DNA from: Gemmatimonadaceae bacterium
GTDB taxonomy: Bacteria; Gemmatimonadota; Gemmatimonadetes; Gemmatimonadales; Gemmatimonadaceae
Direction: 5' to 3'
Assembly (NCBI GenBank): GCA_036496605.1
Contig: DASXKV010000014.1
Span: 1 to 64,000 of the forward strand
DNA: 64,000 bases
Shown: one piece after another, positions 7,074 through 40,741 of the stretch
Layout of the letters: the number at the start of each line of letters is the position of its first letter
Position numbering within the stretch: the stretch's first letter is position 1
Notes under the pieces: generated by a model
The model's input: only the letters and a program-made list of their open reading frames with translations
The model's database searches: none
What the model was told of the DNA's origin: nothing
Translations under genes and position numbers: made by a program

Positions 7074-9569
7074 TCATACCGCGCGAACGAAATGACCGCG
7101 TGTGAAGGCTCCCAGGAGCACGTCCCGGATCCCATCCGTCTGCGTGTGCTCGAATCGGTCACCCACCGCAAGACGCTCGAGCATGCGACGGTACGAACCG
7201 ACGACCTTGGCGATCGGCTCTCCGGGAACATTGAACACGAGCTGGTAGCCACGAATGCCCGCGGTCCAGATACGCGCGAGATACTCCGAACCTTCCACGG
7301 GGCGCGAATGGAGCAGCCGATTGCGGCACGCCGAGTCGGTGGCGACGGCAAAGTCGTAGCCGGCGGGATCGGTGAGCGTGACGTTCGAATGCTTCTGCAC
7401 GCACAGATCACGGCAGGTCGTCGGCTCACGATCGAATGCGGCGGAAAGGATGCAGTGCTCGATGGTCATCCCTTCGGGGCGTCCATACAGGAAGACGTCG
7501 AAGCCGCTGCCCTGCCATGGTGCGACGACCGCGCTCATTTCGTCCGCCGTGAGCTCGACCGAGAGCACGATGCGGCCCGCACCGAGCTTGAACAGCCGCG
7601 CGGCGCTGTGCTGATTCATCACGTTGACCGCGTAATCGGCGACGACGTCGCGTCCAGCGCGCGACAGCTCGGCCACGAGCCCGAGGTGTCCGCTGAGCAA
7701 GGGAAGTCCGCTGTCGAGCCACTTGCCAATGCCGCGGCGTTCTTCCGGACGTACGATGGTGGGCGTGCGGAGCCGAAACGTGATGCCGCGTGCGCCTAAC
7801 GACTCGGCGAAGGTGCGAACGCGCGTAAGCGGCGGCGCCGGGTGACGCAGGAACGGATCGAAGACGATCTCCGTCGCGCCGGCATTCGCGGCCGCTTCGG
7901 CGTCCTCGAGTCGGAAGACCTGCGCGGAGAGCGTGAAGGCGACGTTTGACGGCGCGCAAAATGGCGTCGCGACGGTGGAGATGGCGCGCTCGATCCGCTC
8001 GGTGCGCTCGGCACGCGTGGCTTCGAGCGACCAGTCGCGTTGCGACGTGAGCTGCACGATGGCGCTCTGCCGCATGTGATTGATCTCGCGCACGGGCAGG
8101 AAGAGATCGACGTCGAGCCCGCGGTCGTCGAGCTCGGCGAGCGCGAAAGGCGTTTCGCCCAGTCGGCCGAACTGCTCGCGGAGGACCGTTCGTTCGAGGG
8201 CTCGGTTGCTCGCCGGGACGAGCTGCGATTCGCTGCGCACTTCGACGGTGGCCCCCCCACTACAAAATAGCGCTTTGAGGTGCGAGCCCACCGAACCAAA
8301 AACGCGCACGTCCAACCGAATCTTCTTCAGCATCGACGCCTGGCTCAGCGCTTCGTAGCTCGCCTTCGAACGCGCGAGGAGACTCGCCTGCGACGTCCGC
8401 ACGACACGCCAGCCGGCCGCGACGCGAGTCCGCGTGCGCACTGCCTGACGATGACGAGGAGAGCCTCCCAGCTGCCTAACCGCAGTCGCGGCGAAGCCAA
8501 CCGTTGGACCACCGATCGCATCCGGCGCCTCGAACGCCAGTCCGTCGCCGACCTCCACGGGGCGATCGGTATCGATGAGCAATTCTCCCTTCTCGTAGCC
8601 GATCACTTCGCCGATGACGATGCCGCGGTTGTCGGGCTGCGTTCTCGTCACATACTCGCGCCCCTCGCGACCACCATACATACCACTCGTGAATCCGCGA
8701 CTGAAGATCTGCACGAGTGGCTCGACCTCCGTCGCGGCGGGCGGCGTCTCGTCGCCCCGGCGCAGCCGATCGAGAAGTTCGCGGTACGTGTGCGTGACCG
8801 TCGCAACGTACTCGGGACGCTTCTTTCGCCCCTCGACCTTGAGGCAAACAATCCCGAGGTCGGCGATTGCCGGCAGATGTTCGTATGCCGCCAGATCCTT
8901 GCTTGATATCAAGTAGCCCCGATCGAGCTCCTCGTCCGTCACCGCATCCTTGAGGACGTAGTCCTTGCGGCACGACTGCGCGCACGAGCCACGATTCGCG
9001 CTGCGCTCGGAGATCATTCCGGACATGAAACACTGGCCGGAGTACGAGATGCACAGCGCGCCATGGATAAACGTCTCGAGGCCGAGATTCGGGACACGAG
9101 CGCGGATGGCGGCGAGATCCGCGAGCGTATTTTCGCGCGCCAGGACGACGCGTTTGACACCGAGCTCCTCGAGCACGGCGGCGCCCGCTTCGTCGTGCAC
9201 CGTCATCTGAGTCGAGCCGTGAATCTCGAGATCAGGATAGATCTGGCGAATCAGATCGATGAGACCGAGATCCTGAACGATTGCGGCATCGATGCCGCAA
9301 TCGATGGCTTCCCCAAGAAACGCGAGCGCCTCGACCAGTTCGGCCGGCTTGACGAGTACGTTCAACGTGAGATAGATGCGGCGGCCGCGGCCGTGCGCGA
9401 TGCGGCAGGCTTCGGTCAGCTCCTCGAGCGTGAGCTGAGCGCCTTCGTCGCGCGCGTTGAAGCGTTGCGCACCGAGATAGACGGCATCGGCGCCGTTGGC
9501 GACGGCCGCGCGAACGGCGTCGAGCGAACCGGCGGGTGACAGGAGCTCGGGAATCGACCGCGTACTCAT
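7074..9569 (-). CDS. U32 family protein, RlhA-like 23S rRNA hydroxylation factor
   Basis: An 831-residue member of the peptidase U32 family. The N-terminal TIM-barrel-like region begins PELLSPAGSLDAVRAAVANGADAVYLG, the family hallmark. The conserved cysteine cluster follows (SYSGQCFMSGMISERSANRG, then CAQSCRKDY), and C-terminal cysteines lie in CILSAAF, CRDLC and ACRNRLLH. Length and layout match the long members that include E. coli RlhA (YdcP), needed for hydroxylation of 23S rRNA C2501, and possibly an iron-sulfur cluster on those cysteines. The peptidase label is historical; protease activity is doubtful. Exact role here inferred from family only. Confidence 0.85.
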   Translation of the reverse strand: MSTRSIPELLSPAGSLDAVRAAVANGADAVYLGAQRFNARDEGAQLTLEELTEACRIAHGRGRRIYLTLNVLVKPAELVEALAFLGEAIDCGIDAAIVQDLGLIDLIRQIYPDLEIHGSTQMTVHDEAGAAVLEELGVKRVVLARENTLADLAAIRARVPNLGLETFIHGALCISYSGQCFMSGMISERSANRGSCAQSCRKDYVLKDAVTDEELDRGYLISSKDLAAYEHLPAIADLGIVCLKVEGRKKRPEYVATVTHTYRELLDRLRRGDETPPAATEVEPLVQIFSRGFTSGMYGGREGREYVTRTQPDNRGIVIGEVIGYEKGELLIDTDRPVEVGDGLAFEAPDAIGGPTVGFAATAVRQLGGSPRHRQAVRTRTRVAAGWRVVRTSQASLLARSKASYEALSQASMLKKIRLDVRVFGSVGSHLKALFCSGGATVEVRSESQLVPASNRALERTVLREQFGRLGETPFALAELDDRGLDVDLFLPVREINHMRQSAIVQLTSQRDWSLEATRAERTERIERAISTVATPFCAPSNVAFTLSAQVFRLEDAEAAANAGATEIVFDPFLRHPAPPLTRVRTFAESLGARGITFRLRTPTIVRPEERRGIGKWLDSGLPLLSGHLGLVAELSRAGRDVVADYAVNVMNQHSAARLFKLGAGRIVLSVELTADEMSAVVAPWQGSGFDVFLYGRPEGMTIEHCILSAAFDREPTTCRDLCVQKHSNVTLTDPAGYDFAVATDSACRNRLLHSRPVEGSEYLARIWTAGIRGYQLVFNVPGEPIAKVVGSYRRMLERLAVGDRFEHTQTDGIRDVLLGAFTRGHFVRAV

Positions 9570-10017
9570 AAGTCCTGAAAATTAACGCCGCGTTCGCATT
9601 TCGCGGCATTCTCTTGCGCTTCGCGAATGCACCGGACGCCGCGATCTCGTCGCCGTGCCCGAAACGCTCGTCGGAATGACCGACAGGCTATGTCGCGCCG
9701 CTCGGCGTCGGTGAGGTTGTCCGATTTGGCCGTCGGATGTCGGTCGGCTCGCCTCGTTTCCGTGGCGTTAAGCGCACGGAACAGCGTTTGCCCTAGGTAG
9801 CGCCTAACGCGCGGAGCGCAGCCGATTGTGTAGTTGTTAGACAGTTCTAAACCGCGCAAGTGACAAGAATGCGAACAGTTTAGAGCATTCTAAGCTCAGC
9901 GTGTGAGGGGCGTCACTGGTTCCGACAAGTGTTTGGTGCAGTTTTGACCGTGTTCATTGGCGGTTCTTTCGAGCTGTCCCTTGCCGCCGACCGCAGTACT
10001 CACGGCAGCTCACTCTC
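9570..10017. other. 448-bp divergent intergenic region
   Basis: This gap separates the minus-strand U32 gene from the plus-strand lipoprotein gene and must hold both promoters. I see one octamer copy (GCCTAACG, 9802-9809), two matching dyads (annotated separately) and a weak TTGACC hexamer at 9944-9949 without a convincing -10 element. A 97-codon minus-strand frame fills part of it but looks non-coding. Base composition drops in GC around 9830-9960, as expected for a control region. Confidence 0.5.
9837..9893. promoter_or_regulatory. Two copies of the dyad TTAGA-N4-TCTAA (candidate operators)
   Basis: TTAGACAGTTCTAA (9837-9850) and TTAGAGCATTCTAA (9880-9893) have identical 5-base half-sites and a 4-base spacer. 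Their centres are 43 bp apart, close to four helical turns, so a dimeric regulator could sit on the same DNA face at both. Such AT-rich dyads stand out in this GC-rich DNA. They lie between the divergent U32 and lipoprotein genes. The regulator is unknown. Confidence 0.5.
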
Positions 10018-10761
10018 ATGAGGGCAAAGGCAATTATGCGCGTATCGACGCTGGTACGTTGGTGTACGGCGCTCACCGTGGTGGTTCTTGCCGCGGCGTG
10101 CTCCGACACCGCGACCGCGCCACCCACTCCTGCTGCGCGGCCCCGACTGTCCGTCGGGAGCTATGAGCAGTGGCTGCTGGACAACGGTGGCGCGAGCCGC
10201 GATGGACGCGGCCGCAAGAACAAGACGGATTCGGGCTGGACGCAGGATTTCACTGTCGATCCGACCCAGCCGTACACGCTCAAGGCTGGCGATCACGTCG
10301 TCACCTTCCCGGCGAACTCGATCTGCGACCCGGCGACGTCGGGTTACGGCGAGGCGCTCTGGGACGCGCCCTGCACCCCGCTGCAGGCGCCGATCACGAT
10401 TCACGCGAGCTGGAGCAACAAGCTGGGTCACGCGTTCATCGACTTCCAGCCGGCGCTTCGCTTCGCGCCCACGAATGATCCGTCGAAGTATGTGACGATC
10501 AACATGAAGGATTCGTGGGACCTCGACACGACGTATCACTATCCAATCTTCTGGCGGCGCCCATCCGATAGCGTCTGGGTGGACGAAAGCCTGGCCGATC
10601 CCTCGATGACTTCTGTCGAGGATCTGAAAGGAAACCGCGTCTCACGACGCCTCAAGCACTTCAGCGGTTATCTCGTCGGCGTCTCCGAGGTATGTGATGC
10701 CTGGGGCGGCTCCGACTGTAGCTCCGTGTTGTCGTTCTCCGGCTATCTGATGGGATTCTGA
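10018..10761 (+). CDS. Putative lipoprotein with two FSGY motifs
   Basis: A 247-residue secreted protein of unknown function. The N-terminus is a lipoprotein signal: basic start, hydrophobic run, then LAAAC, so lipidation is expected at that Cys. The ATG at 10036 (MRVSTLVRW) is an equally good start, with AAAGG five bases ahead. The mature part begins with a Pro/Ala linker and continues with a probable beta-rich domain holding two Cys pairs (ICDPAT..APCTP; VCDAW..SDCSS). The sequence FSGY occurs at about residues 215-218 and again at 240-243, as FSGYLMGF at the very C-terminus. The next small gene ends the same way. Two candidate operator dyads lie upstream. No family recognised. Confidence 0.75.
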   Translation: MRAKAIMRVSTLVRWCTALTVVVLAAACSDTATAPPTPAARPRLSVGSYEQWLLDNGGASRDGRGRKNKTDSGWTQDFTVDPTQPYTLKAGDHVVTFPANSICDPATSGYGEALWDAPCTPLQAPITIHASWSNKLGHAFIDFQPALRFAPTNDPSKYVTINMKDSWDLDTTYHYPIFWRRPSDSVWVDESLADPSMTSVEDLKGNRVSRRLKHFSGYLVGVSEVCDAWGGSDCSSVLSFSGYLMGF

Positions 10762-10826
10762 GCCTCCGCATACGACAACTCTTCCACTTCAACCCTTATT
10801 CGAACCCGACGGAGGCTCGATCCAAC

Positions 10827-11003
10827 ATGTCTCGAGTAACCATGCCGGTGCTGGTCCGGCTGCTGTTGTGCGCGGCGTTGTTCGGCGTGTTTAGCGCCAG
10901 CACGACTCCCTCGAATCAATGGTCATACGAGGGCGATAGTTCGGCAGCCACGCACCTGCCAACGACCAACTCTTTCTCAGGCTATATCATCGCGGTCGGA
11001 TGA
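10827..11003 (+). CDS. Small secreted protein with C-terminal FSGY motif
   Basis: A 58-codon gene. The start ATG is preceded by GGAGG about ten bases upstream, a better ribosome site than most here. The protein opens with a basic stretch and a hydrophobic run (MPVLVRLLLCAALFGVFSAS) that looks like a signal peptide, leaving a mature chain of only ~33 residues, Ser/Thr-rich. It ends FSGYIIAVG, closely matching FSGYLMGF at the end of the upstream lipoprotein. Shared ending, shared secretion signal and adjacency suggest a common role or partner. A hairpin 23 bases after the stop probably terminates both genes. Function unknown. Confidence 0.6.
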   Translation: MSRVTMPVLVRLLLCAALFGVFSASTTPSNQWSYEGDSSAATHLPTTNSFSGYIIAVG

Positions 11004-11025
11004 ACTGACCGCTATCAAGAAAGAA

Positions 11026-11062
11026 CATCGGGCCAGACCGGGATACCTCGGCTGGCCCGATG
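11026..11062 (+). terminator. Hairpin after the FSGY gene pair
   Basis: Perfect 10-bp inverted repeat CATCGGGCCA / TGGCCCGATG with a 17-base loop, followed by ACCTTTCCC. Placed between the small secreted gene and the large signalling gene, it is a likely though U-poor terminator. Confidence 0.55.
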
Positions 11063-11211
11063 ACCTTTCCCGCCTTCGGGGCGTCATAAGTCGAATGCGC
11101 TGCTGCACCTTCGTTGCGCCGGGGGCCGCGGATGGCGCGGCCAAAACTTCACTCGATTCATAGCCGCCGTTTGCCTCGACATCACTGTCCGTCGTCGCCG
11201 CCCGAGGACGC

Positions 11212-14200
11212 ATGAGCGACTCGCCGAAGCCCCTGTCGGACACGCACGAGCAGCCGCTCCAATCGCGGTTGCTGGCGGCGGCAACGTCGACAGCGGCGCT
11301 CATCGATCGGGCGCAACTCGCCGAACGTCAGGGTCGCACGCAGGAAGCACGGCAGCTGTACGAGCAGGCGCTGGGCCAGTTGCGTTCACCAGAAGAGGCG
11401 CCGATTGCGGCCTCGCTCCTGCGCTGGATCGGCATCACGCACGGTGTCGAGCTGAACCTCGACGCGGCGTTCGACTGTCTCGAGGCCGCGCTGGCCGTCG
11501 CCGAAGCGCTCGGCGACGAGGCCGCCGTCGGCCACGCGGTGAACGTTCAGGGTTTGCTCAATTACAAGATGGGGCGGCTCGACGAAGCAGAGCGCCTCTA
11601 TCTCAAGGCGCGCGAGAGTGCACGTCGTGCCGGCGAGGCAAAGCTGGCGGCGATGACCTCGCAGAACCTTGGCGTCATCGCGAACATTCGTGGTGAGCTC
11701 GAGCAGGCGCTCTGGCACTATGAGGCGAGCCTCGCCGACTATCGCGCGCTGGGGCTCGCCAAGTACATCTGCATCACGCTCAACAACCTCGGCATGCTCT
11801 ACACCCGCATGGAACGGTGGGAGACCGCCGAGCGTGCATACGAGGAGGCGATTCCGCTCAGCCAACAGATCGGTGACGTCGGCGTTCGCGTCATTCTCGA
11901 GGTCAACTTCGCCATTCTCTGGATCTCGCGAAAGGAATTCGCCAAGGCTCGTCAGGCGTGTGATCGCGCGCTCGCGATCGCCGAAGAGACGCAGCACACC
12001 GAGGCCATCGGCGAGGTGCAGAAGTGCTACGGCGTGATCTTCCGCGAGACCGGCGACTTCGGTGCCGCCGAGGAGGCCTTCCGGAATGCCGTCGATCTCG
12101 CCGATTCACGACAGGATCTCCTGCTCTCGGCGGAAATCGCGCGCGAGCTCGCCGAGCTCTATCGCTTGCAGGGCCGCAATCGCGACACGCTGCAGAGCCT
12201 GAATCGTGCGCACCGGCTCTTTACGCAACTCCACGCCCGCCCCGATCTCGCCGACATCGATCGTCAAACGACTCGGCTCGAGAGCGACTTCCTCGACGTC
12301 GTCCGGCGCTGGGGTGAGTCGATCGAATCCAAAGATCACTACACGCAGGGTCACTGCGAGCGCGTTGCCGATCTTGCGTGTGCACTCGCGGCGGAAGCCG
12401 GGCTCGATCAGAAGTCACTCTTCTGGTTCCGCATCGGTGCATTGTTGCACGACGTCGGCAAGCTGATGATTCCCCCGGAAATTCTCAACAAGCCGGGCCG
12501 CCTAACGGCAGAAGAGTGGGTGATGATCAAGAAGCACCCCGTGTGGGGAGTCGAGATGCTCGCGGACATCGACTTCCCCTGGGACGTACGCCCGATCGTC
12601 GAATCCCACCACGAGCGCTGGGACGGTGCCGGCTATCCGCACGGACTCAAGGGGGAGGAGATTCCGCGAACGGCGCGCATCCTCTGCATCGCCGACGTGT
12701 ACGATGCGCTGACGTCCGAGCGCAGCTACAAGAAGCCGGTATCGCACGATCAGGCGCTCGACATGATGCGCAGCGATGTCGGGCACCAGTTCGATCCCGA
12801 GCTCTTCCCGCAATTCGAGACGATCATGGAGCGTCTCGGCCCGCCACGGCGCGGCCTTGCTGATCCGACGACGCCAGCCGAGCACGTTCACGCCGCGTCA
12901 CCGAGCGAGGTGCCAGGTGAAGTCGATGACCTCACCGGCGTGCTGGTTCGTCGCGCCTTTCTCGACGCCGCGAACACTACCCTGCTCCGCCGTCGCACGA
13001 ACGACCCTGCCTCAGCGCTCCTCGTGATCGACGTCGACCACTTCAAGCTGGTCAACGACACGTACGGCCACCTCCAGGGCGACGACGTGCTCAAAGCCGT
13101 CGTCGCGCTGCTCAAGCGCGGTGTACGCGGTGGCGACGTCATCGGTCGTTATGCAGGCGACGAGTTCGTCGTGCTGCTCCCGCGCACGACGATGGATACG
13201 GCACGCGAGGTGGCGGACCGGCTTCGTACGGCCGTCGAGCGCGAGCGGATCTCATTGCGGGGCACGCCGAGCGAGACCGTTGGCGTCACACTCTCGATTG
13301 GTGTCGCGACGGCGGAGCACGCAGACCACGTCGAAGCGGTGTTCGCCGCCGCCGACCGCGCGCTCTACGAGGCCAAGCGCGCAGGGCGAAACGCGGTTGC
13401 GCTCGCAGGCACCGCGACCGAATCGTCGCAGCCGCAGCTCAACCTCAATCGGTTCGTCGGTCGCGTCGAAGAGCTCAAACGCCTCGTGCGCATGCTCGAT
13501 ACGTCGTTCCGAGGCGAACCCCGTGTCGTCGCCGTCGTCGGTGAGGCCGGTGTCGGCAAATCGACGCTGCTTCGCCAGCTCCTGCCCGAAGTCCGTCTCC
13601 GCGGTGGCTCACTCGTCATGGGTCGCGCGCTCGAGGCGGACGTGAAGCCGCCCTATGGTCCGTGGGCAGAGATTCTATCGTCGATCAAGCAGCGCGTGAA
13701 CGCGCCCGGTCGCGTCTGGCGTGAATTGCCGCGACTCGTTCCCGCCCTGTCCGATGGCAGCGAGCCACGCCCGGAGAGCACAGGCAGCAAGTACGCGTTG
13801 TACGAGGAAATCGTCGAATACGTTCGGCTCGCGGCGGCCACCTGCCCGCTCGTGCTGGTGCTGGACGACATGCAGTGGGCCGACTCGGCCACCTGGGACA
13901 CACTCGAACACCTCGTGCCGCAGCTCGATCAGGATCACATCTTCATCTGCCTCACGATCCGCGCCGAGGACAAGAGCAAGGACGTCATGGATCGGCGGCG
14001 GCGCCTCTCGCGCGACGAGCGATTCAGCGAGATCTCGCTCCAACGCCTAACGCGAGCGGAGCTCGAGCAGTGGCTCACCGCCGCGTCGCGCGGACAGGAG
14101 CTCGGACGCGAGCTCCTGCCGGTGCTCTATCGTCACACGGAAGGCAATCCGTTCCTCGTCGTCCAGGTGCTGCGCGCCCTCGTCGAGGAAGGCGAAATTC

Positions 14201-16008
14201 GCTACGAGGGCGAACGGTGGATCTGGAAACAGACGTCCGAGCTACGGCTCCCCGTCGCGGTGAGCGACTTGATGGCGCGCCGTCTCGACCGACTCAGTGA
14301 GCGCACCCGCAACATTCTGACGACGGCGGCGGTCATTGGCCGCGTTTTTGACATCGACCTCGCGCTCGCCGCGGGCGCCGGCACCGAAGACGAATTGCTC
14401 GACGTGATCGACGAAGCGGTCGCCGCCGCGGTGCTCGAGCCGTCGCGCGGCGACGCCGACTCCTACGCATTCACGCACACGCTGCTCCTCGACGCAATCA
14501 AGGAGACGGCGAACCCGCGTCGCTTGAAACGCATTCACCACGCGGTGGGTGAAGCGCTCGAGAAGCGTAGCTCCAACGCCATCGCCGAGTTGGCCGATCA
14601 CTTCGACCAGGCCGGCGTGAGCGACAAAGCATATCGTTATGCTATGCAGGCGGGCGAGAGCGCGACGACGGTATACGCGCACGACGAGGCCGCGGCCTTC
14701 TTCACGATGGCGCAGCGCCACCCCGCGACGCCGTCGGAGCGTCTCAATGCCTTCATGGGCGCGGTCAAGGTGGCCGAGGTCTCCGGCCGATATGCAGAAG
14801 CGGTCGAGTTGTGCAAGACGGCGCTCAGCAGCGTCCAGGATGACGTCACGCCGGCCGAGAAGCTGCCACTTCTCATCTTGTATGAACGGGTCCAGGCATT
14901 CCTCGGCAAACCGCTGACGCAGACGCTCGAGGTCTACCAGTCACTCCTCAAGCAAGCCGAGGAGATGGGTATGCAGAAGGAGCGCGTCTCGCTTCTCACA
15001 ATGCTCTCGACGACCTACGGCAGCCTGGGCGACCCCGCCACCGCACAGCGGTTGGCGCGCGAGAGCGCCGACATGGCCGAGCGGATCGGCGAGCGGCTGT
15101 TGCATGCGCACGCGCTCATGCGTGTCGGCTGGACGCTATTCGAGGCAGGCTCAGAGGAAGCGATCGTCCATTATCGGCGCGCGCAGGAAATCTGCAGCGA
15201 GATGGACGACCGGCATGGTTACGTGCGCTGCCAGATCACAATCGGCGTCAGCTACTCGAAGGTTGGAAACATGGCGGCGGCAATCGAAGCGTTTCGAAGC
15301 GCGGTCGAACTCGGCTTGCAGGCGGGTGCCCCGGACTGGGCGGGTGTCGCCGCGCTCAACCTCGGCGTGCTCTTCATGTGGAGTGGTCGCTTCGACGAGG
15401 CGCGGCAGCGTTTCGACGAAGCGCGAAAGCTGTTCATCAAGCTCAAGAACGAGCTGCACCGCGTCGCAACGATCTACAACATGGGTCACCTCGCGAGGGA
15501 GAGCGGCGATCCGACCCGCGCGCTGGAGCTTTACGAGGAGGCAGCAACGAGCGCGCGACGCCTCGGTCAGCTGGACATGGAAATCGGCGCGCTTGCCGGC
15601 GCCGGCTTGGCCGGTCTCGATCTCAACCGTCGCGACTACGCATATACCGCTGCGCGTAACGCCGAGACGATGGTGGGTGAGCGCTTTGACTGGTGGTTCC
15701 AGAACCGCGAGCTCGTCGAGGCGCTGAGCGTACGCGTCACGCTGGAGCTTGGCCGTCGCGACGAAGCCGAACAGCGCTTCCGCACCGCCCTCGCGGATAC
15801 GGAGCCGCGCGATGCGCGTTGTGCCGCCTGGTTGGCTGCAGAGTGTGCGCCCGCGCTCATTGCCGCCGGCGCCGATGTGTGGGATTTCGTGAGGAGGTTC
15901 TCGCAGCGCGCCGATGACCTGGGGTATACGGCACTCGCGACGCGATTCCGATCGTTGCTCGCGCGCCACGGCCGATCCTCGGGCGGGCGCCACGCGATGG
16001 GCGCCTAA
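11212..16008 (+). CDS. TPR / HD-GYP / GGDEF / STAND-ATPase fusion protein
   Basis: A 1598-residue cytoplasmic signalling protein with no membrane segment. Order: N-terminal TPR array (~30-340); HD-GYP domain (~370-545) with LLHDVGK and an intact HHERWDGAGYP, so c-di-GMP hydrolysis is expected; GGDEF domain (~570-735) with AGDEF at the active loop and RGGD five residues before it, the product-inhibition site; a MalT/AAA_16-like NTPase (~745-1010) opening FVGRVEELKRL with Walker A GEAGVGKST and LDDMQWAD as Walker B; then a winged-helix-like region and a C-terminal TPR solenoid to the end. Domain assignments are firm; the combination is unusual. Possibly it makes and degrades c-di-GMP in response to a ligand or partner sensed by the TPR/STAND part. 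Its stop codon lies in an octamer copy. Confidence 0.92.
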   Translation: MSDSPKPLSDTHEQPLQSRLLAAATSTAALIDRAQLAERQGRTQEARQLYEQALGQLRSPEEAPIAASLLRWIGITHGVELNLDAAFDCLEAALAVAEALGDEAAVGHAVNVQGLLNYKMGRLDEAERLYLKARESARRAGEAKLAAMTSQNLGVIANIRGELEQALWHYEASLADYRALGLAKYICITLNNLGMLYTRMERWETAERAYEEAIPLSQQIGDVGVRVILEVNFAILWISRKEFAKARQACDRALAIAEETQHTEAIGEVQKCYGVIFRETGDFGAAEEAFRNAVDLADSRQDLLLSAEIARELAELYRLQGRNRDTLQSLNRAHRLFTQLHARPDLADIDRQTTRLESDFLDVVRRWGESIESKDHYTQGHCERVADLACALAAEAGLDQKSLFWFRIGALLHDVGKLMIPPEILNKPGRLTAEEWVMIKKHPVWGVEMLADIDFPWDVRPIVESHHERWDGAGYPHGLKGEEIPRTARILCIADVYDALTSERSYKKPVSHDQALDMMRSDVGHQFDPELFPQFETIMERLGPPRRGLADPTTPAEHVHAASPSEVPGEVDDLTGVLVRRAFLDAANTTLLRRRTNDPASALLVIDVDHFKLVNDTYGHLQGDDVLKAVVALLKRGVRGGDVIGRYAGDEFVVLLPRTTMDTAREVADRLRTAVERERISLRGTPSETVGVTLSIGVATAEHADHVEAVFAAADRALYEAKRAGRNAVALAGTATESSQPQLNLNRFVGRVEELKRLVRMLDTSFRGEPRVVAVVGEAGVGKSTLLRQLLPEVRLRGGSLVMGRALEADVKPPYGPWAEILSSIKQRVNAPGRVWRELPRLVPALSDGSEPRPESTGSKYALYEEIVEYVRLAAATCPLVLVLDDMQWADSATWDTLEHLVPQLDQDHIFICLTIRAEDKSKDVMDRRRRLSRDERFSEISLQRLTRAELEQWLTAASRGQELGRELLPVLYRHTEGNPFLVVQVLRALVEEGEIRYEGERWIWKQTSELRLPVAVSDLMARRLDRLSERTRNILTTAAVIGRVFDIDLALAAGAGTEDELLDVIDEAVAAAVLEPSRGDADSYAFTHTLLLDAIKETANPRRLKRIHHAVGEALEKRSSNAIAELADHFDQAGVSDKAYRYAMQAGESATTVYAHDEAAAFFTMAQRHPATPSERLNAFMGAVKVAEVSGRYAEAVELCKTALSSVQDDVTPAEKLPLLILYERVQAFLGKPLTQTLEVYQSLLKQAEEMGMQKERVSLLTMLSTTYGSLGDPATAQRLARESADMAERIGERLLHAHALMRVGWTLFEAGSEEAIVHYRRAQEICSEMDDRHGYVRCQITIGVSYSKVGNMAAAIEAFRSAVELGLQAGAPDWAGVAALNLGVLFMWSGRFDEARQRFDEARKLFIKLKNELHRVATIYNMGHLARESGDPTRALELYEEAATSARRLGQLDMEIGALAGAGLAGLDLNRRDYAYTAARNAETMVGERFDWWFQNRELVEALSVRVTLELGRRDEAEQRFRTALADTEPRDARCAAWLAAECAPALIAAGADVWDFVRRFSQRADDLGYTALATRFRSLLARHGRSSGGRHAMGA

Positions 16009-16205
16009 CGGTTCTCATCCCCCGCGTCGTCCGCGGAACGGCGGCGACGTGACGACCGCGGTCCGATGAATCGGAGTGCGGCCGCGGCGGCGAGAAAAGC
16101 GATACCGATCCAGCGCAGGCGTCCCGTGTCGGTGCGAACACCGTAACCAAAGAGCACGAGCCCGATCAAAGTGAGCCCCAACTTCAGCTGCGTGAGAGCG
16201 CTCAT
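16005..16205 (-). CDS. Small membrane protein
   Basis: A 66-residue protein with two hydrophobic segments (LGLTLIGLVLFGYGV and IGIAFLAAAAALRFI) separated by a short loop containing RTDTGRLRW, and a strongly basic tail (SSRRRRS) ending DDAGDENR. It is the last gene of the long minus-strand group. Its TAG stop overlaps the TAA stop of the convergent giant gene within a single octamer GCCTAACG. The double-hairpin membrane topology is inferred from hydrophobicity by eye. Function unknown. Confidence 0.6.
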   Translation of the reverse strand: MSALTQLKLGLTLIGLVLFGYGVRTDTGRLRWIGIAFLAAAAALRFIGPRSSRRRRSADDAGDENR

Positions 16206-16223
16206 GGCTTCTGCACGCGCGGG

Positions 16224-16586
16224 CTACCTGACGCCGCCTTCCGGCAGGCCGTACCGCTTCGCGTCCGTATCGGGAACCTCGATCACCATGCGGAGTAGCG
16301 CCGTCGAGAACACCTTCCCTTGCGCGTCGGTCTTGAGCGAGAGCGTGCCTCCACCGTCCAGCGCGCCGTGCAGCAGAAAATTGAGCGCCTTGAGATTGGG
16401 CAACTCGTAACGCTCGACGTCACCGGTGATGACGGCATGAAAGTGATCGCGCACGCGTTCGCGCGTCACGTACTTCTCGAGCAGCGGATACCACTCCGGT
16501 TTCAGCGCAATGAGACCGACGTTGGCAGTGTCGCCCTTGTCACCCGAGCGCGCGTGCGCGACCGCAACGAGCTGAACTCGCATCAT
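16224..16586 (-). CDS. AtuA-like small protein (ferredoxin-like fold domain)
   Basis: A 120-residue protein corresponding to the small domain that follows the AtuA/DUF1446 domain in single-chain homologues. Hallmarks are [19 protein letters not shown] near the N-terminus and [19 protein letters not shown] in the middle. The start ATG forms an ATGA overlap with the stop of the AtuA gene upstream, implying the two products are made together and form a complex. Family members occur in acyclic terpene and branched-chain acyl-CoA degradation clusters; biochemical role is unproven. Confidence 0.88.
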
Positions 16587-17950
16587 GCCACCTCGACCTT
16601 CGTCTGGACGACACGCTTGTCGATCAGCGCTGGCCAATAGGCGACAATCTCCTCGACTTTGGGGCGTCCGCCGGCAAAGCCCGTGACGGTGGGCGGACCG
16701 TTCAGCACGAGCGGGGCCAGCTCGCGGGTGAATCGCTCGACGACGGCGCGATCCGGCGAGCGGACACCGACGCGCAGTTGGACTTCGGCGGCGTCGTGAC
16801 TCTCGCCCGAGAGCGGGCCATGGGCTGCCGACACGCCAACGAACTCGGTGAGTATCTGGTCGAACTCGAGACCGAGATGGTCCAGCCTGGCCCGGAGAAC
16901 TTCATCTGCCTTACGAGCCTTGTCGAGGGCATCGGGCCAGGCATACACAAGCGTGCCGACCGCCTTGAAGCCGGCGCGATAGGCAATCGAGACCTTCAGC
17001 TTGTCCGTTGGCGGTCGGCCCTTGATGCCAAAGACGCGCACCCGATCCGGACCGTCCGGCGCGAGCTCGATCGTTGTGAAATCGGCGATCACGTCCGGTG
17101 TGATGTACGAGTGCGGATCACCCATCTCGTACACGAGCTGCTCGGTGACCGACTGCACGGAGATGCGGCCACCCGTGTGGGGATGTTTAGCAATCACGAA
17201 CGTGCCGTCAGGATTCGCTTCGACGATCGGATAGCCGACGTTCGCGAGGTCCGGAATGTTTCGCCAATCGAACAGACAATTTCCCCCAGAGCACTGCGCG
17301 CCGCATTCGATGGTGTGGCCGGCGATGATGCCCGCCGCCAACTTGTTCCAGTCGTCCGCCGCCCAATTGAACTCATAACGAATCGGCGCCATCGTGAGCG
17401 CCGTATCGGTTGACCGGCCCGTGATGACGACATTCGCGCCCCGCTCGAGCGCCTCGACGATCGGCACCGAGCCGATGTACGCATTGGCGGATAGCACTCG
17501 ATCGCGGACCGTCGCCAGCGCTTCGCCGGTATCCATGTTACGCAATTCGTGTCCAGCTGCGATCAACTCGTCGAGTCGCGGCAAGAGATCGTCACCCGTG
17601 ACGACGCCGACGCGCACAGTCCCGCGCGCGCCACCTCGCTCGGCGACGCCACGTATTGCCTCGGCGCATGCCGGCGGATTCACGCCGCCCGCGTTCGCGA
17701 TAACGCGCACCCCACGCTTCGCGATCGCGGGCAGAATGCTCTCCACCGCGCCGACAAAGTCGCGCGCGTAGCCGAGCTTCGGATCGCGTTCCTTCTGCTT
17801 TTGCAGAATGGACATCGTCACCTCGGCCAGGTAATCGAGCATGAGGTAATCGATGTCGCCGCCCTCGACCTGACGCCGTGGTGCCTCGAGCCAATCTCCC
17901 CAGAACCCCTGGCCCGAGGCGACGCGTACCAATTGCTTTCTCCTCGTCAT
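16583..17950 (-). CDS. AtuA family protein (DUF1446)
   Basis: A 455-residue protein of the acyclic-terpene-utilisation AtuA family. Characteristic segments are GQGFWGDW at the start, [24 protein letters not shown], and [15 protein letters not shown] with its cysteines. No mechanism is established for the family; genetic data elsewhere link it to citronellol/geraniol degradation and to branched acyl-CoA breakdown. Here it follows an acyl-CoA carboxylase beta subunit by an ATGA overlap and precedes its small partner by another. Splitting AtuA and its C-terminal domain into two genes is a known variant. Confidence 0.9.
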
Positions 17951-19617
17951 GCCTGGTCCAGCTGCGCGGGCAGAACGAATGCGCCAAGGTGTGGTCCCGG
18001 ATTCTGTAAGGCGGCGTCCAGCGCCATCGCGACGAGCTCACGCGTCTCTTCGGGCGCCACGATCGCATCGACAAATCCGCGCGCGGCTGCATAACGAGCA
18101 TCCAATTGATGCTCGTAGTCTTCGCGCATCTCTTCGACCGCCTCGACGACGCCCGGAGCGAGCGCCTTGCCTTTCTTCTTCGCCTCTTCGATCGCCGGAC
18201 CGTGTACTGCCTGGATCGCCGACTCTCCCTCCATGACGCCCATCCTCCCTGTCGGCCAACTGAAGATGAAATCGGGATCGAAGCCTTGCCCGGCCATCGC
18301 ATAGTAGCCGGCGCCGGACGCGTGATTCACGGTGAGCACGAGCTTGGGGACGCGCGCGGTCGCCATGGCTTCGACGAAGCGCGCTCCGGCGCGAATGATC
18401 CCTTCGTGCTCCGCCTCGGGCCCGACCATGAATCCTGAAACGTCCTGGACGAAGAGGATTGGAATCCGCTGCCGATCGCAGCGCTCAATGAAGAACGCGA
18501 CCTTTTCCGCGCTCTCGGCGTAGAGAATTCCACCGAATCGCGGCTTCTCGCCGGGTCGACCCTTGATCAAGCCGCGTTGATTGGCGATCAACCCGACGCC
18601 GATCCCGCGAATGTGAACGTCGCCGCAGATGATCTCCTTCGCGAGCCGCGGCTGGAATTCGTCGATCGCTCCATCGTCGACGAGCGCACGAATCACCTCG
18701 TGCATGTCGTAGGACATCCGGTGATCGGTGGGCAGCACGTCGTATAGCTGCGTACCGTCCGGCTCGGCTCCGCTCGATGCCGAATGACGCGTCTGCTGCG
18801 GCAACATCGCGACGAGCTCGCGGAGTTTTGTCAGGCACGCCGCATCGTCGTCCACCGCGTAATGGGCGACGCCGCTCGTCTCCGTGTGCGTCGCCGCGCC
18901 GCCTAACGTCTCGGCGTCAATCGTCTGACCCGTCGCGCCCTTGACGAGATTCGGCCCGCCGAGTCCCATGAACGACGTGCCCTTCACCATCACGATGAGG
19001 TCGGACAGCGCCGGCAGGTACGCTCCACCAGCGATGCACGGCCCCATGACGGCGGCGATCTGCGGAATGCGCAGATATCGTCGCATGATCGAGTTGTAGT
19101 AGAAGAGGCGCGCCGCGCCGTACTGACCGGGGAATACGCCGCCCTGATACGGCAAGTTCACGCCGGCGGAGTCGACGAGATAGATGATCGGAATGCGGCA
19201 TCGCATGGCCAGTTCCTGCGCGCGCAGCATCTTCTTGATCGTCTCGGGCCACCAGGAACCGGCCTTCACGGTCGCATCGTTCGCCACGACGACGACGCTG
19301 CGCCCCTCCACGATGCCGATGCCGGTGACGACGCCGGCGGCGGGCGCCTGTCCATCGTACTCGTCATAGGCCACGAGCAACCCAATCTCGACGAAGCGCG
19401 AACCTGGGTCGCAGAGGCCGGCAATTCGTTCGCGAGCGGTGAGCTTGCCCTGCTTGTGCTGCTTCGCGATGCGATCGGGGCCGCCACCGTGCCGAAGCTG
19501 GTCCTCGAGCGCCCGAACGGCAGCCACGAGGTCGCGCAGCCGTGAGTGTCCACCCTCGGTCTTCCGTGCGGTTCCGCCCGCGGTGCCGCCGGCTCCTCTG
19601 CCCGCCGTGCCTGTCAC
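17947..19617 (-). CDS. Acyl-CoA carboxylase carboxyltransferase (beta) subunit
   Basis: A 556-residue biotin-dependent carboxyltransferase. The two crotonase-fold halves are visible: N-half with the acyl-CoA loop [16 protein letters not shown] and [15 protein letters not shown]-half with [24 protein letters not shown] and [16 protein letters not shown], where biotin and the second oxyanion hole sit. Layout is closest to methylcrotonyl-, geranyl- or propionyl-CoA carboxylase beta chains; the substrate cannot be fixed from sequence alone. No biotin carboxylase (alpha) gene is in the window, so it must lie elsewhere. GTG start overlapping the upstream stop (GTGA); an Ala/Gly-rich, probably disordered N-terminus of ~25 residues. 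Confidence 0.92.
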
Positions 19618-20024
19618 GCTTCCTGGCGTTGTCGCTCCGCGAACCAGCCGCGAATGTAGTCGATCAACTCACTCGTCGGCGTCCCTGGCCCGAAGAGCTT
19701 CCCGATGCCGCCCTGCCGAAGCTGCTCCATGTCCTCGCGCGGGATGATGCCGCCGCCGGTGATGAGTATATCATCACGTCCTTGCTCGGCGAGCAGATCC
19801 CGGACCCGCGGAAAGAGCGTCATGTGGGCACCGCTCAACACCGAGAGGCCGACGACGTCGACGTCCTCCTGAATTGCCGCGCTGGCGATCATCTCCGGTG
19901 TCTGGTGCAGCCCGGTATAGATGACTTCCATGCCCGCGTCACGCAGAGCAGCGGCGACGACCTTCGCACCACGGTCGTGACCGTCGAGACCTGGTTTTGC
20001 GACGAGAACACGTATCGGACGCAT
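19614..20024 (-). CDS. icmB: Cobalamin-binding small subunit of acyl-CoA mutase (IcmB type)
   Basis: A 136-residue Rossmann-like B12-binding domain. The DxHxxG motif is intact as LDGHDRG (His16 ligates cobalt in base-off/His-on cobalamin), followed by GLSVLSGAH and ITGGGIIP, which bind the nucleotide tail. The length equals that of IcmB, the free small subunit of isobutyryl-CoA mutase; in most methylmalonyl-CoA mutases this domain is fused to the large chain. Its partner is the large subunit encoded just upstream, with one methyltransferase gene between. The subunit name follows the residues seen in that partner. Confidence 0.88.
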
Positions 20025-20065
20025 GTGATGGCGTTGAGTGGTTCGCGTAGAGCGCAGAAAAGAAG

Positions 20066-20944
20066 CTAGCGGCGCGGCTTGCGACCGGGCAACATGCGCA
20101 CGGCACGCGGCTTCCTCGCAACGAGGAGCATCTCCGTCGAGTGACGGGTGAGTGGTCGATCTCGCCAGCCATCATACGCTTCCTCGACGATGAGACCCGC
20201 CACCGCGCAGAGTTCGGCGAGCCGCGTCGCGGTGTAGAGACGAATGTGATGCTCGCGCGTGCCCGAGCCACCGGGACCGCTCCACCGAGAGTCGACGGTG
20301 AGAATGCCGGACAGCGGATCGAAGCGTCGGTCCTGGGCGTGCAGCGTTCCGTCTGACGTCTGCCACCAATCGCGCTCGAGGAAGCGCGCCATCACGCCGT
20401 CGCGGCTTCCACCGTGCCACACGAGTGTCCCACCCGGCACCAGCACTCGGGCGAACTCCACGAGGACCAGACGATCGTCGGCCGGGACGGCGAAGAAGCC
20501 AAATGAGGTAAAGAGATTCAGAACCGCATCGAAGCGACCTGTCCACTCGGAAGGGAGCTCACGCATGTCACCGCGATGATACTCGAGCGTCGGCCCCGTG
20601 CCCCGTTTCTTCGCGCGTTCGAGCAGCGTCGTCGAAAAATCGAGCCCATCGACGCGGAATCCTGCCTCTGCGAGCAAGTGACTGTGCCGTCCCTGGCCGC
20701 ACGGCACGTCGAGTACTCGCGATCCGGTGGGCAGGCCGAGCACCTCGATAACACGCGCGACTTCGCGCCGGTCGCGCTCGAGCGTGAACAGCGGTTCGTA
20801 TTCGCGCAGGTACTCGAGGTCGAAATACCGCGCCCACCACTCGCCTTGCGGAGGCGTCAGAAGAACACGGGCTCCCGATACGCGCCAAACACACTCTCGA
20901 GCGCGGCGCGGATCTCGTACAGCGTGCAGTAGCGTCGCGCGCAC
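20066..20944 (-). CDS. SAM-dependent methyltransferase (class I)
   Basis: Rossmann-fold methyltransferase with motif [13 protein letters not shown], motif II GLDFS, and a post-core [11 protein letters not shown]. The conserved lead-in [18 protein letters not shown] is typical of small-molecule methyltransferases. The start is uncertain. From the ATG used here the gene overlaps the mutase by 88 bases with an unconvincing N-terminus; a CTG at 20860-20858 would give a CTGA overlap with the mutase stop, mirroring the ATGA/GTGA junctions elsewhere, and a protein starting just before the conserved region. It lies between the two mutase subunit genes, so a role tied to acyl-CoA or cobalamin metabolism is possible but unproven. 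Confidence 0.8.
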
Positions 20945-36779: not shown

Positions 36780-37573
36780 GGCGACACCGCGTCAATGGCC
36801 GCGCGCAACGACGACGCCAGGCTCACCGCACTCGAGATACTCTCGTCGGCGGCACGCACGATCGCGCTCCCAACGACGACACCGTCGGCGAGCGTCGCCA
36901 CCGCGCGCGCCTGCTCCGGCCGAGACACGCCGAACCCGACACAAATCGGCAGCTCAATCGCTTGGCGCACGCGCCTAACGGTTTCCGGCAGCTCGGTCGG
37001 CAACTGATCCCGAACACCGGTTACACCGAGGCGGCTGATCAGATATACGAAACCGCTGCCGTGCTGTGCGATCTCGATCATCCGTTGCGGCGGCGTCGTC
37101 GGTGCGACGAGCCGAATGAACGCCAGCGGGCCCTCGCCGAGCCACTGCTCGCGCTCGGGATCGGCGCCGACTGGCAGATCGACGACGAGCACACCGTGCA
37201 GGCCCGCTCCCGCAGCGCGGGTCAACGCGTCGCGACCCGCCGCAAGCAGTGGGTTCAAATAGGTGAACAGGATCACGGGGATGCCGAGCCGTGCGCGCGA
37301 GACGATCTCGAGCACGCCGTCGAAGTGCATGCCGTTCGCGAGCGCCTTCTGCGAGCTGGCCTGAATGATCGGCCCATCAGCCATTGGATCGGAGAACGGA
37401 ACTCCGATCTCGATGACGTCCGCGCCGGCACCTTCGAGGCCTCTGAGCAGCTCCATCGTCGCCGCCGGCGATGGGTGCCCCGCCGTGATATACGGTACGA
37501 GCGCGCGTCGGCCGGACGCGCGCAGCTGCGCGAAGCGCTCAGCGACGCGCTCAGATGAAGTAGTCGCCGACAC
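36776..37573 (-). CDS. trpA: Tryptophan synthase alpha chain
   Basis: Cleaves indole-3-glycerol phosphate to indole. TIM-barrel motifs are PYITAGHPS, catalytic Glu in [16 protein letters not shown], catalytic Asp in VLVVDLPV, and [12 protein letters not shown]. The start is a GTG ([14 protein letters not shown]) giving 265 residues, the family length; the frame is open upstream but that extension is not homologous. This start lies 23 bases inside the preceding HD-GYP gene. Its stop overlaps the chemoreceptor start (ATGA). It is separated from trpB by two unrelated genes. Confidence 0.95.
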
Positions 37574-39050
37574 GAATGCCGTACCGATCGGGTTGGTCCG
37601 TCTTGATGATGGTTCGTTTGAACGCGCCGTCCTGCCCGCGATCGGCGAGATCGACGAGATAGCCCGGGAACAAGATATTCCCCCTCGCGTCGCTGACGAT
37701 TCGCACGATCGGTCGCGACAGCATCTCCGCGATGGGGTTCCCCGCATGCACCAACCCCAGCTCGAACGTATCGAGCACCACCGTGGTGCCGACTGGGAAG
37801 ATACCCGTGAGATTCACGAAGGCTTTCACGAGCACCGGGTCCATGCCGCGCCGCGGATTGTCGCGCATTTCCTTCATGACGTCGGCCGGATTGAGCGGCG
37901 TCGTCTGATACGAGCGTCGCGACGTCGCCGCGTCGAATCCGTCGGCCACCGCCACGATCTTGCTGAACACGCTCATCTGTCGCGGCCGCACCGCTCGCGG
38001 ATAGCCGGTGAGGTCGATCTTCATGTGATGCTCGTGAGCGACAACCATCGCGCGATAGTGCAGATCCTGTGTTCCGCGCAGTTGAAAGAGAGAAAGGACA
38101 CCCATCCACGGATGCGCCGCGATCATCTTCCATTCTTCGTCCGTGAGGCCATCGGCCTTGTTGAGCACGTCGGATGGCACGCGCGACTTGCCGATATCGT
38201 GGAAGAGCGCGGCCATGCCGAGATCATAAAGCTGTAATTTCGTTAGGCCGAGTCGCTTGCCGATGGCGACGGAGAAGATGCAGACGTTGACGCTGTGCGT
38301 GAACGTGTATTCGTCGTAATCGCGAATCGCGGTGAGGCCGACGAGCGACGTCTCCTCGTTGAGGATCTGATCGACGATGCCCTGCACAACGCGTTTGATC
38401 TTCTTGATGTTCGGACTCTTCCCGAACCGCACTGCCGTCATGAGATCTTTCGTCACTGCGACCGACTGCGCGTACGTCCGCTTGGCGCGCTCCTTCGACT
38501 TCTCCTTATCGTCGTTGTCCGACTCGGCAGGTCGCGCGAGCGTGAATGTCCGCACACCGGCGTCCTCGAGCTTCGCGAGGAGCACATCGAAGCGCTGCTC
38601 GGGCTCTTCGTTGCCGGGAGCGGATTGCAGTAGCGAAAGGAACACCAGCCAGTCGCGCGCCGTCACCGACGGATCGATATGCTGCGCGCCGAGTCCTGCT
38701 CGCCGGTAGAGGGACAGGAGGTGACTGAAGCTGGCGTAGTTGTCGAGGTCGAGCCGAAGCCGCGTCGCGTTGACGAAGATGAATTCGCCCGACGTTCTGA
38801 TCTCGAGCTCCGACTCAGCGGCGATCATCTCGCGGCTCAGCGTCGTTAGCTCGTCGAGTGCGCGCTGCACGGCCGCGTTCTCCACCGGATAGAGCTTGAT
38901 CGCGCGCAACGCCGCGTGATACGCGTAGACGAGGCTCCGGCCGGCGCGTCGAGTGTACGAATCCCCCGAGTTGGGATCGGGGCTCGAGCCGCCAGCGGCC
39001 GCCGTCAGGGGAGACGCGGGCGCCGCGGCGAAGGACCGCGACGCGGTCAC
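37551..39050 (-). CDS. HD-GYP domain protein with degenerate motif
   Basis: A 499-residue soluble protein from a GTG start that overlaps the HEAT gene stop (GTGA). The first ~230 residues hold a long helical region also seen in the HEAT neighbour (KLYPVENAAVQRALDELTTL). The HD-GYP domain follows: HD in ALFHDIGKSRVP and, at the diagnostic loop, AHEHHMKIDLTGYP in place of HHExxDGxGYP. The metal His and Asp residues and GYP remain, but the HHE glutamate is replaced by Met. Activity on c-di-GMP is therefore uncertain. It sits between trpB and trpA. Confidence 0.85.
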   Translation of the reverse strand: MTASRSFAAAPASPLTAAAGGSSPDPNSGDSYTRRAGRSLVYAYHAALRAIKLYPVENAAVQRALDELTTLSREMIAAESELEIRTSGEFIFVNATRLRLDLDNYASFSHLLSLYRRAGLGAQHIDPSVTARDWLVFLSLLQSAPGNEEPEQRFDVLLAKLEDAGVRTFTLARPAESDNDDKEKSKERAKRTYAQSVAVTKDLMTAVRFGKSPNIKKIKRVVQGIVDQILNEETSLVGLTAIRDYDEYTFTHSVNVCIFSVAIGKRLGLTKLQLYDLGMAALFHDIGKSRVPSDVLNKADGLTDEEWKMIAAHPWMGVLSLFQLRGTQDLHYRAMVVAHEHHMKIDLTGYPRAVRPRQMSVFSKIVAVADGFDAATSRRSYQTTPLNPADVMKEMRDNPRRGMDPVLVKAFVNLTGIFPVGTTVVLDTFELGLVHAGNPIAEMLSRPIVRIVSDARGNILFPGYLVDLADRGQDGAFKRTIIKTDQPDRYGIRVGDYFI

Positions 39051-40741
39051 GTGATCGCTCCGCGGAGCGCGCGGTTCACTGCATTCCGAACGACGACGTC
39101 CTTCTCCGATGACGCCTTGCGAAGTACTTCCGTCGCTTTCGGTCCGGCGATTCGTCCGAGCGCGATCGCGGCGCACGCGCGCAGTTCCGAATCCTCGCGC
39201 CGCCCGAGAAAGCCTTTGCCGTTCAGCACCGAGTCCAGGTACTGCACGCCGCCATCACCAGCGAGCGTCCCGAACGCCTCGAAGAACGCCATTTTCTCCG
39301 TGAGATCGGCCTCTCGCACCGCTTTGCCTTTCACGGCCGCATCGATACGCGGCAGCACGAGCCTGTAGGTGCGCGCTGTGAACGCGCGCACGGTCGAGAT
39401 TCGAACCTCGCGGTCCGAATCCTCAACGCCGCGCTCGAGCGCCTGAAGCGCACTGGGCGAACCGATCTCGGTCAACGCTTGCACCGCCGTTTGTCGGAGC
39501 TCGACATCAGGCCCGCTGAGGACCTTCGATAATGACTGCACTGCCGCAGGCGTCTTCAATGCGCCGGCGCGCCGAATCGCCTCCAGAGCAACCTCGCGCT
39601 CGGGAGCCACGATCAGACGCACCAACTCGGTCGTGTTCAGCGAAGCTAGACGCTCCGCCGCCGCCTCGAGCAACGGTCGCACCTTCGGGTTGTGCATTCG
39701 ACGGAGCCAGCTGAACACCGTTCCCAGCGCGATGGGCCGGAGCTGATCGAACATCTCCATCAGCTCCGACTGCGGGGGCAGCTCGGCCGTGTCGTCGAGC
39801 GACTGTAGCAGCTGCGCCAACGACTCGGGCGCGCTGAGCCGGATGGGCAGCTCGTTCAGTGCGTGCTTATGCTCCGGCGACAGATCCGACGCGCGCTGCA
39901 TCGTTGCCTGCACCTCACGCAACAGGTGAGCGACGCCGCGGAAGTGTCCCGTTGCGAGCAGGTTGACGAGCGTCGAATCGAGAATCTCGAGAATCTCCTT
40001 GCGGACCTCGGCGTTGCTCTGCTGCTCGAAGATGTCGAGCAACGTCGATGTGACGCGCGAGCGCAAATCCCCCTCGTACTCACGAGAGATCTCGCTGTGG
40101 AGATACTCGATCTCGTTTTCGTCGAGGAAGTACAGGGTCGTGTCGAAGTCGGACATGTTCACGATGCCGGCCGCTTGCTCCGTGACCGACGTGTGCGCCG
40201 CCTGGGCGACCTGGTCGGGTGCCACGTCCGTCTTCGGCGTGTTGTCACTGATCGGCGCTGCCGCATCCATCGCCAGATCCTGGTAGCGATATCGCGCGTA
40301 CGCGAAATCGGCTTCCCAGAGCATCGTTAGGAGATCGTCCTCATCGGGCGATGCCTTACGAGCTCGCTGCAAAATGCCGAGCAATGCGACGACTTCCTTG
40401 TCCTCGAATCCCTTGAGCAATTCCAGCTCGCGAACGCCATCCTTGAAGAACAGCCACGACAGGCTGTCGCCTCCCTTGCTCGGCTCGGACAGTACGACGT
40501 GGTCGTACCAGAATATCTCGGTCTCGGTGAGGGTGAGCGTGAGCTCGTCGATCTGCGCCCAGATCGTCGTAAAGCCGGCGCGAAGCGCATCGAGCGCCTG
40601 CTTGTAAATCGGGTTATTCGGGAGGTATAGCTGATGAGCGCGCCCCGCCTTGACGACGAGTCGGAGCAACTCTTCGACGGGAGCTGGTGGAAACGGAGCT
40701 TCCTCCGTTGCCCCTGCGGTGGGCGCGGAGGTGGCTGTCAC
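39047..40741 (-). CDS. HEAT-repeat protein
   Basis: A 564-residue protein beginning at a GTG that overlaps the trpB stop (GTGA). The N-terminal part opens with [29 protein letters not shown], a segment similar in style to the start of the following HD-GYP protein. The C-terminal ~250 residues are HEAT-type helical repeats ([58 protein letters not shown]). No catalytic motif is visible. A scaffold or adaptor acting with the HD-GYP protein is plausible from adjacency and the shared N-terminal style. Confidence 0.85.

Follow-up and report, generated by a model that had tools for sequence, protein, structure and literature searches.

What could a protein that carries a c-di-GMP phosphodiesterase, a c-di-GMP cyclase and a STAND ATPase on one chain be listening to? 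The question is raised by a gene in a 64,000-nucleotide stretch of Gemmatimonadaceae DNA (the window). The original prediction had a single protein joining TPR, HD-GYP, GGDEF and STAND ATPase domains, and this is borne out by one uninterrupted forward-strand frame, from an ATG at 11212 to a stop at 16008, that encodes 1598 amino acids and shows the same order of Pfam domains. Precursor-like neighbour genes, which that prediction had missed, supply a concrete ligand candidate. The features discussed here are as follows.

10018-10761, forward strand: ZU5/GAIN-like predicted lipoprotein, 247 amino acids, a candidate peptide precursor or surface partner (from linkage, invariant residues and fold matches)
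10827-11003, forward strand: unannotated 58-amino-acid ORF, a candidate propeptide, ending NSFSGYIIAVG (SGYIIAVG codons at 10977-11000)
11019-11069, no strand assigned: inverted repeat with 18-nucleotide arms, 89% complementary; core conserved in three congeners
11212-16008, forward strand: CDS of the TPR/HD-GYP/GGDEF/STAND/TPR protein, 1598 amino acids (from the ORF, Pfam and homologues)
11287-12231, forward strand: N-terminal TPR array, residues 26-340 (Pfam TPR families; limits set by hand from homologues)
12322-12804, forward strand: HD-GYP phosphodiesterase domain, residues 371-531 (HD_5, 1.1e-40; HD at 12448-12453, HHERWDGAGYP at 12607-12639)
12922-13392, forward strand: GGDEF cyclase domain, residues 571-727 (GGDEF, 1.3e-40; RGGD at 13126-13137, AGDEF at 13153-13167)
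13450-14721, forward strand: STAND nucleotide-binding oligomerisation region, residues 747-1170 (AAA_16, 6.3e-28; Walker A at 13540-13566, Walker B at 13849-13869)
14722-15951, forward strand: C-terminal TPR solenoid, residues 1171-1580, a candidate sensor (Pfam TPR; MalT domain III 1hz4, Z 23.5)

Predicted opposing c-di-GMP enzymes and a STAND module on one chain

Pfam places TPR arrays at each end of the fusion (TPR_12, 1.9e-49, 8 stretches) and, between them, HD_5 at residues 371-531, GGDEF at 571-727 and AAA_16 at 747-912. All of these matches are well over the curated cut-offs, so the profile search that had been proposed as a check on the domains came out in favour of each. The motifs lie where they were predicted: an HD pair at 413-414, the intact-looking phosphodiesterase motif HHERWDGAGYP at 466-476, AGDEF at 648-652 with an RxxD site (RGGD, 639-642) five residues ahead of it, and the Walker A (GEAGVGKST, 777-785) and Walker B (LVLVLDD, 880-886) motifs of a MalT-like NTPase with TPRs on both flanks. 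No convincing transmembrane segment was found in the protein (top 19-residue Kyte-Doolittle mean, 1.59), which therefore looks cytosolic.

Comparison with 42 full-length homologues, 35-93% identical and all within one family, shows that the catalytic residues are kept. The HD-GYP residues H413, D414, H442, H466, H467, E468, G472, G474, Y475 and D495 are present in 42/42, giving the HD pair, the second-shell histidines and the HHExxDGxGYP motif of the signature. Equally invariant (42/42) are the metal- and guanine-binding GGDEF residues D607, N615, D624, D650 and E651, with the A-G-D-E-F signature kept, and the STAND Walker A K783 and Walker B D886. The RxxD inhibition site is present in this protein but is not a family-wide feature, its R being found in 34 and its D in 25 of the 42; cyclase activity does not require the site. 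Degenerate enzyme domains are not supported by this alignment. Across three congeners dN/dS is ~0.05 in each domain and rises only in the stretch that links HD-GYP to GGDEF (541-568); by this measure all domains of the fusion are under strong purifying selection. A frameshift or pseudogene was also considered and is ruled out by the single intact frame and the purifying selection. The position of PmGH E185 is occupied by Tyr, and the acidic ligand of the trinuclear subgroup is absent; because Y or F at this position marks a likely binuclear subgroup in the published list of metal ligands (PMC4159591), the HD-GYP domain of the fusion likely belongs to the binuclear group. The domain matches V-cGAP3 and PmGH, the nearest solved structure being that of the cGAMP phosphodiesterase V-cGAP3.

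The C-terminal half was modelled with a pLDDT of 89.5, and Foldseek ranks 6mfv, a STAND-TPR protein of known structure, first (E 1.9e-13). The nucleotide-binding oligomerisation (NOD) part of the model is matched by 2qen (Z 20.1 over 11-366) and the TPR part by MalT domain III (1hz4, Z 23.5). Taken over the full length, the TM-score against 6mfv is only 0.27, a low value that is expected where domain orientations differ. By the STAND NTPase definition used here (PMC4381067), the predicted protein has Walker A and B motifs, an NBD-helical-winged-helix order and a C-terminal repeat sensor. TPR matches to Rap and NprR were rejected as specific evidence, since comparable scores are reached by LGN and by APC subunits.

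Given that three catalytic centres are conserved together and that the model of the C-terminal half shows a STAND NOD with a TPR sensor behind it, the fusion is most naturally read as a STAND module that a ligand would trigger and that would control opposing c-di-GMP enzymes. This one giant protein is probably able both to make c-di-GMP and to break it down under a STAND ATPase switch. The switch that had been proposed gains from both lines of evidence, with reciprocal switching and an ATP state acting as the clock as putative features of it. The pairing of STAND with a cyclase is not unique to this protein. In PknK and soluble adenylyl cyclase, as in the TOMM kinase/cyclase fusions, an output enzyme precedes an AAA_16 STAND module and TPRs, whereas the output here is GGDEF plus HD-GYP; the NCBIfam model TOMM_kin_cyc matches residues 859-1166, the STAND part only, at a score far below its curated cut-off. 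MalT and other STAND NTPases (6mfv, Apaf-1, Avs3) share the Walker A/B NOD with a superhelical TPR sensor behind it and effectors at one end, but here a cyclase and a phosphodiesterase serve as effectors and a second TPR array stands ahead of them. Bifunctional GGDEF-EAL and GGDEF-HD-GYP proteins also join synthesis and breakdown domains on one chain, without the STAND switch or the double TPR frame of the fusion. An open-access library yielded no paper that describes a GGDEF-STAND-TPR enzyme or this pair of genes, which is weak as evidence of absence.

Distribution and modularity of the architecture

Recurrence in related genomes, which the original prediction had named as a source of support, is found at 42 homologous loci with the same domain order at full length; chance recurrence of the architecture is ruled out by the survey across relatives. 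In a sample of 395 genomes from across the phylum, the fusion occurs at full length in the window's family only, in ~32 genomes and often as two copies in a genome, whereas other families of the phylum have TPR-HD-GYP by itself. The parts can also be found separately: the genome of the window holds GGDEF-STAND-TPR as a separate protein (G000:C32:103422-106442) and TPR-HD-GYP as separate genes (C32:14451 and C32:16916), and GGDEF-STAND-TPR occurs in a further phylum, that of an Acidobacteriaceae record (L116), where some copies begin with a protein kinase and have a changed GGDEF signature. Judged from these unfused halves in one genome and the occurrence in another phylum, the STAND/c-di-GMP proteins form a modular family. 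Fused and unfused forms separate in the STAND tree, and there is room for a single origin of the fusion. In the phylum of L115 (284 genomes) STAND was found and no contiguous GGDEF-STAND at E 1e-60, and in a scan of genome contigs other phyla gave, among the matches listed, only STAND relatives. Two loci from the phylum of L116 (L171 and L172) encode protein kinase-GGDEF-STAND-TPR proteins; the signature in L171 is EGDNF, and that GGDEF domain is probably not an active cyclase.

Precursor-like neighbours and the S-G-Y terminus

Many family members, though not all, have secreted-looking proteins next to them with S-G-Y-x-x-x at or close to the C-terminus. In the window there are two such genes, both ahead of the fusion, and they bear on the candidate ligand. 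The predicted lipoprotein has KHFSGY at residues 213-218 and the C-terminal sequence SFSGYLMGF; its N-terminal C28 and H214-F215-S216 are invariant in 28 relatives, with G-Y after the H-F-S. Its likeness to ZU5/GAIN came from VIA re-alignment only (ankyrin ZU5, Z 11.9, rmsd 4.8, 136 aligned; also the CD97 and BAI3 GAIN domains, Z 8.2-8.5), with no match under E 0.001 in plain Foldseek. Pfam ZU5 gave no match to the window's lipoprotein and a match above cut-off to a relative, L019. Bacterial surface proteins commonly contain ZU5 domains, and ZU5 and GAIN have been grouped together, with self-cleavage known in some families (PMC3482391). From the sequence, HFSGY proteins may cleave themselves between F and S. 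Three HFSGY lipoproteins (L174, L176 and L178) have a second motif downstream (RKSGYMGAS, KKSGYMGAS and GGYISSSG), resembling the internal [KR]SGY motifs of the small lipoproteins in L033, L041 and L061.

In a comparison of flanks, homologues of the lipoprotein lie upstream of many fusions on the same strand, and downstream instead for the GGDEF-STAND-TPR halves. Every genome with the lipoprotein family among 60 relatives (12/12) also holds a member of the STAND-type family, and about nine lipoprotein copies do not adjoin one. More generally, ORFs with HFSxY within 1 kb upstream of fusions number 31 on the same strand and 0 on the opposite strand. Such an ORF is found upstream of 27/44 fusions and 10/14 TPR-HD-GYP genes, and downstream of 6/8 GGDEF-STAND-TPR or STAND-TPR genes. 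At one locus of the window's genome (L047, G000:C32:9500-24000), tandem TPR-HD-GYP genes each have an HFSGY-type ORF ahead of them and are followed by a GGDEF gene. The whole fusion is tandemly duplicated in L051, L064 and L068, and every copy has a separate HFSG(Y/F) neighbour.

The 58-residue ORF has a hydrophobic N-terminus, looks secreted (signal peptides being assessed from hydrophobicity alone) and is found in all three congeners. Its last 15 codons hold 17 synonymous and 2 nonsynonymous pairwise differences, as against 27 and 35 in the remainder, which indicates that the C-terminus is constrained and the rest is not. The inverted repeat between this ORF and the fusion gene is a possible terminator or attenuator. 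An Rfam riboswitch search of 9400-16700 (E up to 1) gave no match, and a sigma-70 promoter scan gave no site on the strand of the fusion gene, with a consensus that may not apply here.

Other fusion loci have ORFs of 50-107 amino acids with comparable ends (SGYIVASS, SGYTVASS, SGYIIASS, SGYNVTAF, SGYNVTAY and SGYNVPAN). SGYNVTAF ends both a 232-residue ZU5-like protein (L057) and a 79-residue lipoprotein (L061), the ends SGYNVTAY and SGYNVPAN occur in L033 and L041, and the STAND tree places the receptors of these four loci in a single clade. Twelve distinct proteins stop exactly seven residues past HF (e.g., SGYVVAW, SRYAVAW, SDYVIAW and SGYFVEW). The C-terminal place of HFSxY in ZU5 proteins is partly structural, as this is the expected last ZU5/GAIN strand. 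Small ORFs that are not ZU5 and still carry SGY, the occurrence of SGYNVTAF on different scaffolds and the constrained end of the 58-residue ORF nevertheless argue that the S-G-Y end itself matters.

ORFs that end in SGY plus 3-9 residues are concentrated near the fusions, with 27 lying no more than 1.2 kb from a fusion end (273 per Mb) and 3 elsewhere (9 per Mb, ~30 times sparser). Eight control tripeptides showed at most a ~3-fold excess on appreciable counts (ten patterns tested), and the p of 1e-14 for SGY is too optimistic, as the loci are related and some overlap. Of 20 loci fetched after the idea was formed, ~8 have a candidate precursor, a looser scan adding few; near several fusions no candidate was found even by the looser scan. 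The linkage of SGY proteins to receptors is common, not general.

Importer genes are a further neighbour, with peptide/nickel-type genes within reach in 17/51 loci. A binding protein and two permeases lie directly upstream in L041, L042, L057 and L060 and downstream in L053, L054, L055 and L070; L057 has the binding protein, two permeases, an HFSGYNVTAF gene and the fusion on one strand, and in L057 and L060 SBP_bac_5 and the two permeases are contiguous with the SGY gene. Some importer loci have a lone binding protein only, no importer ATPase gene was seen at the examined loci and no importer gene was found at the window's own fusion locus. Nickel and opines are also among the cargoes of the SBP_bac_5 family, which counts against reading these genes as peptide importers.

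A possible peptide signal and its alternatives

We tentatively favour, at somewhat short of an even chance, a peptide-gated c-di-GMP switch, that is, a cytosolic receptor-enzyme that would couple a secreted peptide signal to the c-di-GMP level. We infer five steps. The product of the small ORF and the ZU5-like lipoprotein would be exported, and a C-terminal peptide of ~7-8 residues starting S-G-Y would be freed by extracellular proteolysis or, in HFSGY proteins, by F/S self-cleavage. An oligopeptide-type ABC importer would then take up the SGY peptide, and a TPR solenoid would bind it. Binding would open the STAND module, with nucleotide exchange and oligomerisation; GGDEF cyclases work as dimers, and the GGDEF domains would meet and the cyclase/phosphodiesterase balance shift. 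Since precursors pair with TPR-HD-GYP alone and with GGDEF-STAND-TPR alone, the gene neighbourhoods suggest each TPR array as a possible sensor. Orphan receptors must exist if the peptide model is right, because the linkage is not universal.

A wider claim, possible and held with greater reserve, is that of a hitherto undescribed peptide-signalling system outside Bacillota, in which TPR proteins would read SGY-type peptides that come from ZU5 lipoproteins or from tiny propeptides, with c-di-GMP synthesis and breakdown as output and the largest form working via STAND. RRNPP-type signalling has been described in Bacillota, with TPR receptors of ~250-500 amino acids (PMC10075063). As with Rap, NprR, PlcR and PrgX, a TPR protein here stands beside a short ORF with a conserved C-terminus, a candidate precursor that looks secreted from its hydrophobic N-terminus, and in some loci beside genes for an oligopeptide-type importer. 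However, RRNPP receptors act through DNA binding or as phosphatases, whereas the 1598-residue fusion carries c-di-GMP enzymes and a STAND NTPase, its precursors are often ZU5-like lipoproteins, its host is not of the Bacillota and its peptide binding is putative.

It is also quite possible, if on balance doubtful, that the STAND-controlled switch responds to a cytosolic protein or metabolite, in which case the HFSGY/SGY neighbours would be outputs or co-regulated surface proteins (e.g., lipoproteins for the matrix or for adhesion whose production follows changes in c-di-GMP) and the SGY end would serve structure or sorting. This would suit the ZU5/GAIN model of the lipoprotein, given how common ZU5 is in bacterial surface proteins, as well as the window locus without an importer and the many family members without a candidate precursor. 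There is also a precedent in RcbAB of Vibrio vulnificus, where the TPR-GGDEF protein RcbB is controlled by a cytosolic TPR protein partner, in a system without HD-GYP or STAND (PMC12282931). Alone, however, it leaves unexplained SGYNVTAF on different scaffolds, the C-terminally conserved ORFs of 50-60 amino acids and the clustered importer genes. An unlikely alternative is that one c-di-GMP domain is regulatory, with GGDEF sensing GTP or acting as a scaffold beside a working HD-GYP, or with HD-GYP targeting another dinucleotide (3'3'-cGAMP); the match to V-cGAP3 and the drifting inhibition site lean this way, but the invariant GGDEF residues, the kept AGDEF and an evolution of the GGDEF domain as slow as that of the other domains do not. 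Self-cleaving ZU5/GAIN surface receptors whose strand stays bound, with no exported peptide and an unspecified relay to c-di-GMP, would account for the invariant H-F-S and the CD97 and BAI3 matches, but are very improbable given that ORFs too short for ZU5 share the SGY end and that no membrane-spanning relay gene was recognised.

If the peptide-gated switch is correct, it would join peptide signalling, known mainly in Bacillota, to STAND ligand switches and c-di-GMP, three fields that usually stand apart. It would also say what a STAND-controlled cyclase listens to, offer a signal open to testing in a little-studied group of bacteria and provide a single protein in which one ligand might set c-di-GMP synthesis against breakdown. 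Should the peptide idea fail, conserved STAND-linked c-di-GMP enzymes with their active sites kept would still be useful for studies of STAND control.

Another HD-GYP protein is encoded in the window at 37554-39254 on the reverse strand; it gave no match to TPR, and the scan showed no HFSxY ORF next to it. The genes at 16224-20271, also on the reverse strand, resemble by eye acyl-CoA carboxylase, AtuA-like and B12-dependent mutase proteins and are unrelated to the fusion.
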